From the NCBI GenBank assembly GCA_029060585.1, contig JAIDTS010000015.1, positions 1 to 17,284 of the forward strand: a stretch of DNA of 17,284 bases, read 5' to 3'. Under the pieces are notes generated by a model that was not told where the DNA came from, did no database searches, and worked only from the letters and a program-made list of their open reading frames with translations. The position numbers were made by a program, and so were the translations under genes. This DNA is from Muribaculaceae bacterium. Lineage in GTDB: Bacteria; Bacteroidota; Bacteroidia; Bacteroidales; Muribaculaceae. Within the stretch, counting starts at the first letter, position 1; each line of letters begins with the position of its first letter. Shown piece by piece: positions 4,470 through 11,484 of this stretch.

Positions 4470-6308
4470 ATGAAAGACTTCATCAGATTCCTGAAGCGTT
4501 TCGCCCGCCCCTACGCAGGGACACTCACGCTGAGCATTATCTTCAACCTGCTCAACGGAGTGATGACCGTATTCTCGTTCGCCTTCATCATCCCGATCCT
4601 GCAGGTGATATTCGGTCTTGAAAGAGGACACTACGAATTCAGGCCATGGAACTCCCCGGACATCATCGACACAGTGACCAACAATTTCTACTACTTCACC
4701 GGCCACGTGATCGACACGCAGGGCCCTTCGAAGGCACTCGCTCTACTTGGTGTGATTTTCATTATCATGACGCTGGCGAAGGTCATGACGGGATACCTCA
4801 GCGAATACTTCACAGTGCCGATGCGCAATGGAGTGGTGCGCGACATCCGCAACACGATGTATGCGAAGATCCTCTCGCTGCCTATCGGATATTTCAGCGG
4901 AGAACACAAGGGCGACATCATGGCCCGAATGAGCGGAGACGTGACGGAGGTAGAGGCCTCGGTGATGTCGTCGCTCTATGCCCTATTCCGATACCCTATC
5001 CTTATCATCATCTATCTTGCCACGATGATTGCCGTCAGCTGGCGGCTGACCCTCTTTGTCTTCGTTCTCCTTCCCATAATGGGATGGGTGATGGGGACTG
5101 TAGGCAAGAAGCTGAAGGCTCAGAGCCTGCGCACCATGCAGATCGGAGGACAGATACTATCTACTATAGAGGAAAGCCTCGGAGGACTGCGCATCATCAA
5201 GGCCTTTAACGCAGAGCGCCAGATGGACACACGGTTCCGATCTGAGACTCAGAGCTACGTAAAGTCGGCCAACGCCATGCTCCGACGCCAGGCGCTCGCA
5301 CATCCGATGAGCGAATTCCTGGGTACGATAGCCGTCATGGTGGTGCTTTGGTTCGGAGGCACCCTGATCCTCAGCGGGAACTCCTCGATCGACGCTGCGT
5401 CGTTCATATTCTACATGACCATTTTCTACAGCATCATCAACCCGGCAAAAGACCTTTCGAAGACCGGCTACGCGGTGTCTAAGGGCATGGCGGCCCTCGC
5501 CCGCATCGACAAGATACTTGATGCAGAGAATCCCATCAAGGATCCCGTAGAGCCCGAGCTAATCCCGGAGGACTTCGACGGAAATCCGGCTATTGAATTC
5601 AGGGGAGTGACATTCAGATATGACGGCGACGACAGGAAGGTGCTCGACGATATCAACCTGAAGGTAAAAAAAGGACAGACCGTGGCCATAGTTGGTCAGT
5701 CCGGTTCGGGCAAGTCCACGCTCGTTGACCTCATTCCCCGCTTCTACGACGTCGCGGAAGGCTCCGTCCGTGTGAAAGGGAGAGACGTGAGAGATGTCAA
5801 GGTTGCCGATCTGAGGGGCCTTATGGGCAACGTTAACCAGGAGGCGATACTTTTCAACGACACCTTCCGCAACAACATAGCCTTCGGCAACGAAGATGCG
5901 ACACAGGAGGAAGTAGAGCGAGCGGCTAAGATAGCCAACGCCCACGAGTTCATCATGGCGACACCCGAAGGCTATGATACCATGCTCGGCGACCGAGGCT
6001 GCCGCCTCTCGGGAGGCGAGCGCCAGCGCATCAGCATAGCGCGGTCTATACTCAAGAACCCCGATATACTCATCCTCGACGAAGCTACCTCGGCCCTCGA
6101 CAACGAGAGCGAGCGCCTCGTGCAGGAAGCCCTCGACCGACTTATGGCCGACCGAACCACCATCGTCATCGCCCACCGCCTGTCTACCATCGTCAATGCC
6201 GATGTGATTTGCGTGATGAAAGAGGGCCGCATCGTAGAGACAGGCACCCACGAGGAGCTGATCGCCCTTGACGGCCAGTATGCACGCCTCCACGCCCTCT
6301 CATCCTGA
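4470..6308 (+). CDS. MsbA-like ABC exporter (fused TMD-NBD)
   Basis: A 612-residue half-transporter expected to work as a homodimer in the inner membrane. The transmembrane region covers about residues 15-330, with about six hydrophobic segments (for example 20-48, 88-110, 170-190, 193-212, 283-302 and 308-324). The nucleotide-binding domain has Walker A GQSGSGKST (409-417), signature LSGGERQ (513-519), Walker B ILILDE (533-538) and the H-loop His569. The layout fits type IV exporters such as MsbA, which flip lipid A or other lipids. Substrate cannot be read from the sequence. An LpxL-type acyltransferase and an ArnT-like transferase in the window make a lipid A role plausible. A repeat-derived palindrome begins one base after the stop codon. 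Confidence 0.9.
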   Translation: MKDFIRFLKRFARPYAGTLTLSIIFNLLNGVMTVFSFAFIIPILQVIFGLERGHYEFRPWNSPDIIDTVTNNFYYFTGHVIDTQGPSKALALLGVIFIIMTLAKVMTGYLSEYFTVPMRNGVVRDIRNTMYAKILSLPIGYFSGEHKGDIMARMSGDVTEVEASVMSSLYALFRYPILIIIYLATMIAVSWRLTLFVFVLLPIMGWVMGTVGKKLKAQSLRTMQIGGQILSTIEESLGGLRIIKAFNAERQMDTRFRSETQSYVKSANAMLRRQALAHPMSEFLGTIAVMVVLWFGGTLILSGNSSIDAASFIFYMTIFYSIINPAKDLSKTGYAVSKGMAALARIDKILDAENPIKDPVEPELIPEDFDGNPAIEFRGVTFRYDGDDRKVLDDINLKVKKGQTVAIVGQSGSGKSTLVDLIPRFYDVAEGSVRVKGRDVRDVKVADLRGLMGNVNQEAILFNDTFRNNIAFGNEDATQEEVERAAKIANAHEFIMATPEGYDTMLGDRGCRLSGGERQRISIARSILKNPDILILDEATSALDNESERLVQEALDRLMADRTTIVIAHRLSTIVNADVICVMKEGRIVETGTHEELIALDGQYARLHALSS

Positions 6309-6400: not shown

Positions 6401-6428
6401 TGAATTATGCATTATGAATTATGCATTG
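6401..6428 (+). repeat. Heptad array upstream of purN
   Basis: Four adjacent 7-bp units: TGAATTA (6401-6407), TGCATTA (6408-6414), TGAATTA (6415-6421) and TGCATTG (6422-6428). The array ends 10 bases before the purN start codon. Between this array and the palindrome at 6310-6326 lies AT-rich sequence with no promoter that I can recognise. Confidence 0.85.
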
Positions 6429-6438
6429 ACAAAAGAAT

Positions 6439-7440
6439 ATGACCAACATAGCAGTATTCGCCTCAGGCAACGGCTCAAACGCCGTAAACCTCGTGAAAGC
6501 ATTCAACGCGGGATCCCGCATACGCGTAGACCTCTGCCTAACAGATAGGGAGAACGCACCGGTAATCGAAAAGATGAAAGAGCTGGGAGTAGAGACGATC
6601 TACTTTCCACGCAGCGTATGGAAGGATGAGCCACAGACAATTCTCGAGACGCTGAGAGCCCACGACATCAAGGTGATAGCACTGGCGGGCTTCCTCTGCT
6701 TCCTCAGCGAAGATATAGTGGGTGCCTACGAAGGACGGATCCTCAACATCCACCCATCGCTACTCCCGGCATATGGAGGGAAGGGAATGCACGGAGCAAA
6801 CGTGCATAAGGCGGTCATCGAGGCCGGCGATACGAAGAGCGGTGCTACCGTGCATATTGTCACTAACGAGATCGACGCCGGTCCGATAGTGGTGCAGAGG
6901 GAAGTGGCCGTGCTTCCCGACGACACCCCGGAATCGCTCGAGGCCAAGGTGCATCAGGTGGAATACGAGATATTCCCCGAGGCGGTCATGAAGACCGTGG
7001 CATCCCAAACTCCCCCGGAAGTTCCTAAAAGTGTTGATGAGGCATGGGCTGAGGCTTTGGGTGTGCCCAACAACGTGCCTCCCGTTCCGGAGCAGCCAGC
7101 GCAACCTGTCGCAGTCGAGCCTGTCGCAGTCAGGCAGCCTGAACCATACGCCCACAACATAGACCCTGCCCCCGCTCCGCTAAAGGCGGCAGCAAGCGGC
7201 GAGGCGATGCCTCCTACCTATCTCGCATGGTCCGTGGTCATGACGATTCTCTGTTGCATGATTCCAGGCATTGTCGCAATTATCTATTCTGCACAAGTCA
7301 GCTCAAAATACTATCAGGGCGACTTGGAAGGGGCGCGTAGGGCATCTCGCAATGCCGAGATCTGGATCATCATATCTTTTGTGCTGGGAGTTCTGACCAA
7401 CACCCTCTATCTTCCGTTGATGATAGCCGGGGGCATGTGA
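6439..7440 (+). CDS. purN: GAR transformylase (PurN) fused to a CD225/dispanin-type membrane domain
   Basis: A 333-residue fusion. Residues 1 to about 188 are a complete PurN, which transfers a formyl group from 10-formyl-THF to glycinamide ribonucleotide in purine synthesis. ASGNGSN is at 8-14, and the catalytic trio is Asn103 and His105 (NIHPSLLP) plus Asp146 (EIDAGPIV). Normal PurN ends near here. A Pro/Ala/Val-rich linker (about 190-258) leads to a C-terminal domain with two hydrophobic segments (about 261-285 and 308-330). Between them sits SAQVSSKYYQGDLEGARRAS, the pattern of CD225 (PF04505) proteins. The frame is continuous, with no sign of a frameshift. The linker and tail use more T-ending codons (GTT, GAT, GGT, GCT, TTT) than the PurN half, hinting at later fusion. 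The prediction is a membrane-tethered enzyme with its catalytic head in the cytoplasm. Confidence 0.9.
   Translation: MTNIAVFASGNGSNAVNLVKAFNAGSRIRVDLCLTDRENAPVIEKMKELGVETIYFPRSVWKDEPQTILETLRAHDIKVIALAGFLCFLSEDIVGAYEGRILNIHPSLLPAYGGKGMHGANVHKAVIEAGDTKSGATVHIVTNEIDAGPIVVQREVAVLPDDTPESLEAKVHQVEYEIFPEAVMKTVASQTPPEVPKSVDEAWAEALGVPNNVPPVPEQPAQPVAVEPVAVRQPEPYAHNIDPAPAPLKAAASGEAMPPTYLAWSVVMTILCCMIPGIVAIIYSAQVSSKYYQGDLEGARRASRNAEIWIIISFVLGVLTNTLYLPLMIAGGM
7105..7131 (+). repeat. 12-bp direct repeat in the PurN linker
   Basis: CCTGTCGCAGTC occurs at 7105-7116 and again at 7120-7131, in frame and 15 bases apart. It encodes PVAVE then PVAVR (residues 223-232). It sits inside the linker joining the PurN and CD225 parts and looks like a recent five-codon duplication. 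Confidence 0.9.
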
Positions 7441-11456: not shown

Positions 11457-11484
11457 TGCATTGTTAATTATGCATTATGAATTA
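11457..11484 (+). repeat. Heptad array upstream of pfkA
   Basis: Four adjacent units: TGCATTG (11457-11463), TTAATTA (11464-11470), TGCATTA (11471-11477) and TGAATTA (11478-11484). The array ends 8 bases before the pfkA ATG. The junction closely matches the one before the transglycosylase gene: both read TGAATTAA, a few bases, then GATTATGA containing the start codon. Confidence 0.85.

Follow-up and report, generated by a model that had tools for sequence, protein, structure and literature searches.

In the 17,284-nt stretch of Muribaculaceae DNA analysed here (the window), an uninterrupted reading frame that opens with ATG at 6439 and closes with a TGA stop at 7438–7440 encodes a 333-residue protein, in which a PurN domain is joined in frame through a short helix and a linker to a CD225/dispanin domain (Table 1). 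Its conserved neighbour is a gene for an ABC exporter, to which we tentatively give the name MsbA. Short GAATTATGCATT-like repeats lie at 2640–2719, 6402–6427 and 11465–11476 (seven matches with at most one mismatch, 0.09 expected), two of them just upstream of the fusion gene; Rfam gave no match in the 17,284 nt.

Table 1. Coordinates of the fusion gene, its parts and its neighbour in the window, and of PurN-GNAT fusions in two other genomes.
Feature	Position	Strand	Basis
PurN-linker-CD225 fusion gene, 333 aa plus stop	6439..7440	+	ORF, Pfam, NCBIfam, relatives
PurN (GAR transformylase) domain, residues 1-188	6439..7002	+	PF00551 residues 3-183; AF2; fold matches
Codons 103-105 (N-I-H), putative catalytic N103 and H105	6745..6753	+	Invariance in alignments
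Codon of D146, putative catalytic	6874..6876	+	Invariant in 120/120 aligned homologues
WAxxL helix (DEAWAEALG), residues 199-207	7033..7059	+	Predicted helix; motif conservation
Pro/Ala/Val-rich linker, residues 208-256	7060..7206	+	Low pLDDT; fast evolution
CD225/dispanin domain, residues 257-323 (last predicted helix reaches 332)	7207..7407	+	PF04505
MsbA-like ABC exporter, 612 aa, conserved neighbour	4470..6308	+	Pfam PF00664 and PF00005
PurN-GNAT fusion, 379 aa	L231:1719-2855	-	Pfam
PurN-GNAT fusion, 378 aa	L232:1994-3127	+	Pfam

The preliminary description of this DNA had reported a complete PurN joined in frame to a membrane tail, and the enzyme half bears this out. Formyl_trans_N (PF00551) matched as a whole domain (residues 3–183, E 2.8e-40, 138.4 bits against a Pfam cut-off of 26.1). 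The NCBIfam PurN equivalog TIGR00639 passed its curated cut-off narrowly (150.7 against 150.1 bits), with a score far ahead of the Fmt, PurU, ArnA-type and sugar-type formyltransferase models. Asn103, His105 and Asp146, which we take to be the catalytic residues of PurN, are all present; together with Trp203 they are invariant in 120/120 aligned homologues (the best 120 of 7375, the window's protein included) and in the 35 fusions of a more diverse alignment. AlphaFold predicted residues 1–190 with a pLDDT of about 96 (blocks 85–98), and the nearest solved folds were PurNs (e.g., 3kcq_A, E 2.1e-18). On sequence grounds, the fused PurN is probably catalytically active as a GAR transformylase. 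It shares with bacterial PurN (TIGR00639/PF00551) the whole domain, the three putative catalytic residues, the GxGSN loop and the fold of solved PurNs, but it carries about 145 additional C-terminal residues ending in a membrane domain; the solved PurN chains matched are 180–216 residues long, against 333 for the fusion. Mammalian trifunctional GART (GARS-AIRS-GART) is likewise a GAR transformylase fused to other domains, its partners being other purine enzymes, whereas the partner here is a membrane domain (extract of PMC10912719).

The tail matched CD225 (PF04505) at residues 257–323 (E 2.8e-25, 88.6 bits), far above the Pfam cut-off of 27.1, in agreement with the CD225 pattern first noticed there. 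Helices were predicted by AlphaFold at residues 262–272, 275–292 and 296–332, so that the two-helix tail proposed earlier is indeed predicted to be helical but is better described as a split first helix followed by one long helix. A further short helix is predicted at residues 199–207 (motif WAEALG), and pLDDT falls below 50 at residues 227–252 of the Pro-rich linker. The sole solved match of the tail under E 0.2 by sequence was the PRRT1/SynDIG4 chain 9zks_M (E 6.4e-6). In SynDIG4, H1a and H1b form a short re-entrant helix that is accompanied by one membrane helix (extract of PMC13262616), and the predicted tail helices come in the same order. Basic residues before the last helix suggest that the tail lies in the membrane with a cytosolic N-terminus. 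Like the CD225/dispanins IFITM3, PRRT1/SynDIG4, PRRT2 and the mycobacterial IFITMs, the protein combines PF04505, a predicted split helix followed by a long one, and a Pro-rich stretch before the domain; it differs from them in having a metabolic enzyme as its N-terminal partner. PRRT proteins bear a Pro-rich region, as their name implies. A SNARE-like motif has been described in human CD225 members (extract of PMC11730294).

All 120 best-listed homologues (of 7375, from 8000 candidates scored; the window's protein included) carry both domains. Among the window's closest relatives, too, the gene is fused and has no separate PurN stop near codon 188, and the recurrence of the fusion in many independent records rules out an assembly or frameshift artefact. 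Where these 120 have a named source, it is a Muribaculaceae MAG or, in one case, a Bacteroides sp. Scanning representative genomes gave 28 related loci, with the full fusion in L001–L012 and L028, degenerate forms in L013 and L017, and plain PurN from Chryseobacterium-like genomes in the remaining 13. In a family sample of 297 genomes, the full fusion is present in at least 18, and identities of fusions to the window's protein reach down to 48%. The idea that the fusion is common across Bacteroidales was unsupported: 393 genomes of the order were scanned, and among the listed matches none but that of the centre fusion genome spans PurN and tail. We found no report of a PurN-CD225 fusion among the titles and abstract openings listed for PurN/GAR formyltransferase, CD225/dispanin in bacteria, the purinosome or PRRT1 structures, and no papers linking GAR formyltransferase to Muribaculaceae or CD225 to Bacteroidetes, or on DUF2752.

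Codon use had been taken as a hint of a later fusion. The excess of T-ending codons (T3) in linker and tail is true for the window (24–25%, against 9% in PurN), but it gives no date for the fusion. In eight relatives, the PurN/tail T3 percentages were 13/19, 7/8, 13/19, 5/10, 27/29, 18/22, 12/14 and 18/15; the tail thus exceeded PurN in seven, by small differences, and GC3 was lower in the tail in all eight. A recent joining judged from codon use is unsupported, since the fusion is shared by many genomes and seems to have arisen once.

In different genomes, four states are found beside the same exporter gene: (i) a plain purN of 187–214 codons without a tail (12 loci); (ii) the full fusion; (iii) an eroded fusion of about 236–314 aa, whose PurN part can be recognised no further than about residue 104 and is followed by a helix, possibly PurN's last one, then by linker and CD225; and (iv) the tail alone (154–186 aa; six genomes), with no PurN match in the gene. 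The exporter adjoins the fusion or its remnant in 41/47 tail loci, although in G013 and G014 in the opposite orientation to the tail gene; it is not found beside the full fusions of G204, G101 and G165, the eroded form of G240 or the shorter, eroded-looking forms of G288 and G303. In all 13 aligned eroded forms, the NxHPS motif and the SN of the GxGSN loop are gone, and most share an EGNR-like stretch whose Arg is invariant. Residues 1–122 of one eroded form were predicted, from only 13 sequences, to fold as a mini Rossmann-like domain (pLDDT blocks 83–92), and the closest solved folds of this domain are again PurNs (3auf, E 1.3e-5).

The WAxxL motif is present in 47/47 tail proteins, including the six without PurN, and in 117/120 best-listed homologues. 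It was found in the linker of none of 18 CD225 proteins that carry a GYF_2 domain (one has the letters inside a membrane helix). Thus, the tail-only forms are tied to the fusion lineage and not to the GYF_2 kind.

Which gene supplies the formyl transfer step? In 26/26 full-fusion genomes, the fusion is the only PurN found with the PurN profile (E up to 1e-10); other profile matches in these genomes are partial and lie in frames of apparently Fmt-like length. Eroded or tail-only forms occur in 21 genomes; a separate PurN is present in 17 of these and absent from four (G245, G230, G288 and G303), such absences being soft as the completeness of the genomes is not given. The separate PurN frames are 190–278 aa long, most of them too short to also hold a tail, and 13 of the 16 loci examined place them in a purL-M-N-H-D cluster (exceptions: G284, G280 and G084). 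PurT scored above its curated cut-off in 9/10 genomes checked, including all four without any PurN; the tenth, G115, lacks PurT and has a separate PurN. Thus, with 17 genomes holding a separate PurN and four holding PurT, formyl transfer looks covered otherwise in 21/21. A test of loss of the fused enzyme against possession of a second PurN yielded only three independent pairs on supported branches (p 0.25) and the expected direction in nearly all random pairings; it excludes the window, G115 and the plain-purN rows, and the genomes share ancestry.

The purL-M-N-H-D clusters (L029, L030 and L156–L166), most of which also contain folD, hold a PurN of a distant type. In a PurN tree whose motif filter dropped 5/13 of these operon PurNs and most outgroup rows, the other eight group apart in a clade with a long branch, which suggests that the cluster was acquired. 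Six of the 12 plain-purN genomes (G038, G048, G153, G079, G113 and G059) have a second PurN-like frame of 289–335 aa (E about 1e-28), perhaps a formyltetrahydrofolate deformylase (PurU).

Both ends of the intact fusion are constrained. Omega is 0.05–0.08 for PurN in five pairs and 0.05 and 0.06 for CD225 in two of the five, dS being at or near saturation in the other three; the linker evolves fast (0.20–0.34 in the three of five pairs computable). In eroded and tail-only pairs, CD225 keeps an omega of 0.07–0.10 in five of six computable cases, the sixth giving 0.19. N-terminal dN divided by CD225 dN is 0.4–1.1 in five intact-fusion pairs and 1.5–3.3 in 6/7 eroded pairs, the seventh, a very close pair, giving 1.0. 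The eroded N-terminal halves themselves show omega values of 0.28 and 0.14 in the two computable pairs: the eroded PurN half is relaxed but still under some constraint. Since these halves are constrained and predicted to fold, the N-terminal domain may serve for something other than catalysis as well.

To order the four states we used a tree of the exporter with 54 rows from the family (24 fusion, 12 eroded, six tail-only and 12 plain purN) and six outgroup rows, from which the outgroup rows L223 and L230 and the tail genomes G204, G101, G165, G240, G288 and G303 are left out. When the tree was rooted with the outgroup, the 42 tail-bearing rows formed one clade (100/95), with the plain-purN rows outside. 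On this tree, the catalytic half was lost five times if loss is irreversible, or with four changes by parsimony. The simplest reading of these sequences would be a single gain of the tail, with about five later losses of the catalytic half. When outgroups are omitted and the tree is rooted at its midpoint, the plain-purN clade nests among the fusions and the tree can be read the other way; because of this, and because the outgroup branches are long, the direction of change rests on the root. In the PurN tree, the plain PurNs of G026, G050 and G022 fall beside the fused G297 (98/78), so that tail loss or gene relocation is possible in some lineages.

The tail has a second recurrent neighbour, the gene of a small membrane protein. 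This DUF2752 (PF10825) gene adjoins the tail gene in 26/47 loci and the GYF_2-CD225 gene in 14/18, and it lies beside plain purN in 0/13. From this pattern we infer a physical CD225-DUF2752 partnership. The window and its clade lack DUF2752 next to the fusion, as do seven other tail loci. All 20 tail genomes searched that lack an adjoining DUF2752 have a match at another place, although that of G165 is weak (E 3.7e-5); in G013, G014, G272, G101 and G204 the match adjoins another CD225 gene; for the non-adjoining loci the partnership is therefore unsupported. In the window's clade (L203, L206 and L212–L215, around 1460–1900), DUF2752 comes after a MGLISKLLRKNTS-like ORF of about 400 aa and is followed in several genomes by an efflux-adaptor-like ORF (assigned by eye, one DUF2752 being confirmed by Pfam).

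In the sister loci, Pfam identified GYF_2 in 18/18 CD225 proteins. These Muribaculaceae proteins have a CD225 of the same kind as the fusion and, in 14/18, a DUF2752 neighbour; they differ in carrying GYF_2 instead of PurN, in a linker without the WAxxL helix, and in often lying next to a deoC-like gene. They often follow deoC, with dtd and a MazG-like gene further up (names given by eye). GYF_2-CD225 together with DUF2752, mostly with the deoC-like gene upstream, occurs at L097, L099, L101, L102, L106, L108–L110, L113, L172 and L173, and we regard these loci as a candidate system. With flanks of up to 1.5 kb, CD225 was beside deoC in 0/18 assessable tail-bearing genomes (G011 ends there); among plain-purN genomes, it is present in G048, begun at a contig end in G184 and absent from the other three tested. 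A relocation of CD225/DUF2752 from the deoC neighbourhood is consistent with these counts but unproven. A DUF4339 protein has been listed near a TM2 protein on a gut fosmid (extract of PMC3861447).

What is the tail for? Of the three functions offered in the preliminary description (tethering purine synthesis to the membrane, bringing PurN into a complex, or an unrelated job), the last fits best, as the tail outlives the enzyme half. Sister lineages keep the membrane module after the enzyme has decayed, which suggests that the module has a job of its own. The reading we favour, with a probability of about 0.6, is that the protein is a probably active PurN held at the membrane by its tail, and that this tail is part of a CD225/DUF2752 membrane device which serves a purpose outside purine synthesis and in which PurN is exchangeable; the membrane location, the enzyme activity and the nature of the membrane function are inferred. 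PurN would lie in the cytosol, tethered by CD225 to the inner face of the inner membrane. The tail module (WAxxL helix, Pro-rich linker and CD225) would have joined once to a purN beside the ABC-exporter gene, and selection would keep it for its own non-purine function, exerted with DUF2752 and perhaps the exporter. PurN would be an exchangeable N-terminal domain, GYF_2 taking its place in the tail's relatives, and where a second PurN or PurT covers formyl transfer, the PurN half would erode or vanish while the tail persists. By analogy only, the tail would most likely assist or organise a complex in the inner membrane: structures of native AMPA receptor complexes show SynDIG4 as an auxiliary component (extract of PMC13262616).

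A bolder version, which we hold only tentatively, is that a housekeeping enzyme of purine synthesis was recruited to serve a CD225/DUF2752 inner-membrane device as its input domain and is turning independently, in several lineages, into a dead domain for ligand sensing or scaffolding. If true, the loci would show an enzyme on its way, through a pseudoenzyme, to complete loss from a single membrane anchor, and could help to find out what bacterial IFITM-like proteins do. In 2015, the native role of CD225 proteins in bacteria, from which the IFITM family has been proposed to descend, was called unstudied (extract of PMC4488726), and we found no later account in the CD225/dispanin literature listed. 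A module of a kind known from human antiviral and synaptic proteins here sits on a purine enzyme of gut bacteria, and a central metabolic enzyme is fixed to a membrane domain; the PurT alternative, seen in 9/10 genomes checked, may make PurN expendable. With one anchor available with an active-looking enzyme, a dead remnant or neither, and with GYF_2 relatives, DUF2752 and the exporter at hand, what the anchor does can be studied separately from purine synthesis.

Alternatively, the tail may exist to place PurN at the inner membrane, for instance to link the supply of purines or formyl-folate to a membrane process, its later retention being secondary. The joint constraint on PurN and CD225 in intact fusions (omega 0.05–0.08 where dS is unsaturated) and the standing of the fusion as the only PurN of all 26 fusion genomes speak for this. 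However, the tail has outlived the catalytic half four or five times, 17 of the 21 genomes concerned have PurN in a separate frame, and the tail's relatives carry GYF_2 in 18/18 sister loci. We consider this explanation improbable; since 21 genomes keep the tail without a catalytic half, tethered purine synthesis, the first function offered, cannot be the whole reason for the tail.

About equally improbable is that the PurN fold, active or dead, acts as a ligand input (GAR, folate or a nucleotide) that switches a CD225/DUF2752 membrane output. The predicted folding of one eroded half, the EGNR-like stretch with its invariant Arg in most eroded forms and the residual constraint on the remnants would fit a sensor, but the SN of the GxGSN loop and NxHPS are gone from the 13 aligned eroded forms, the gene matches no PurN at all in six genomes with the tail alone, and N-terminal dN is raised relative to CD225.

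The fusion could also be a neutral passenger, in which a single event removed the stop codon that had kept purN apart from a CD225 gene behind it; the halves would then do unrelated work and their joint would be without functional meaning. The single clade of tail-bearing genomes, the fast linker and the expendable enzyme half would all be expected. Against this, the joint persists through deep divergence (down to 48% identity to the window's protein), and the WAxxL helix is kept in 47/47 tails, tail-only forms included, which argues that the linker is more than a spacer; we think this account quite unlikely. That the enzyme half is a sugar N-formyltransferase at the membrane, rather than a GAR transformylase, is hardly tenable: the adjoining exporter and a TIGR00639 score barely above cut-off are outweighed by a PurN model well above the ArnA- and sugar-type models, by fold neighbours that are PurNs, and by its being the only PurN-type match in 26/26 fusion genomes.

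Two other fusions of purine enzymes came to light. Two other genomes of the family, G139 and G181, encode PurN and a GNAT acetyltransferase as one protein (PF00551 and PF13302; Table 1), a second PurN fusion unrelated to that of the window. In G250, a 697-aa ORF (L161:360-2450, minus strand) joins PurD to FolD, Pfam placing GARS_N/A/C ahead of THF_DHG_CYH and THF_DHG_CYH_C.
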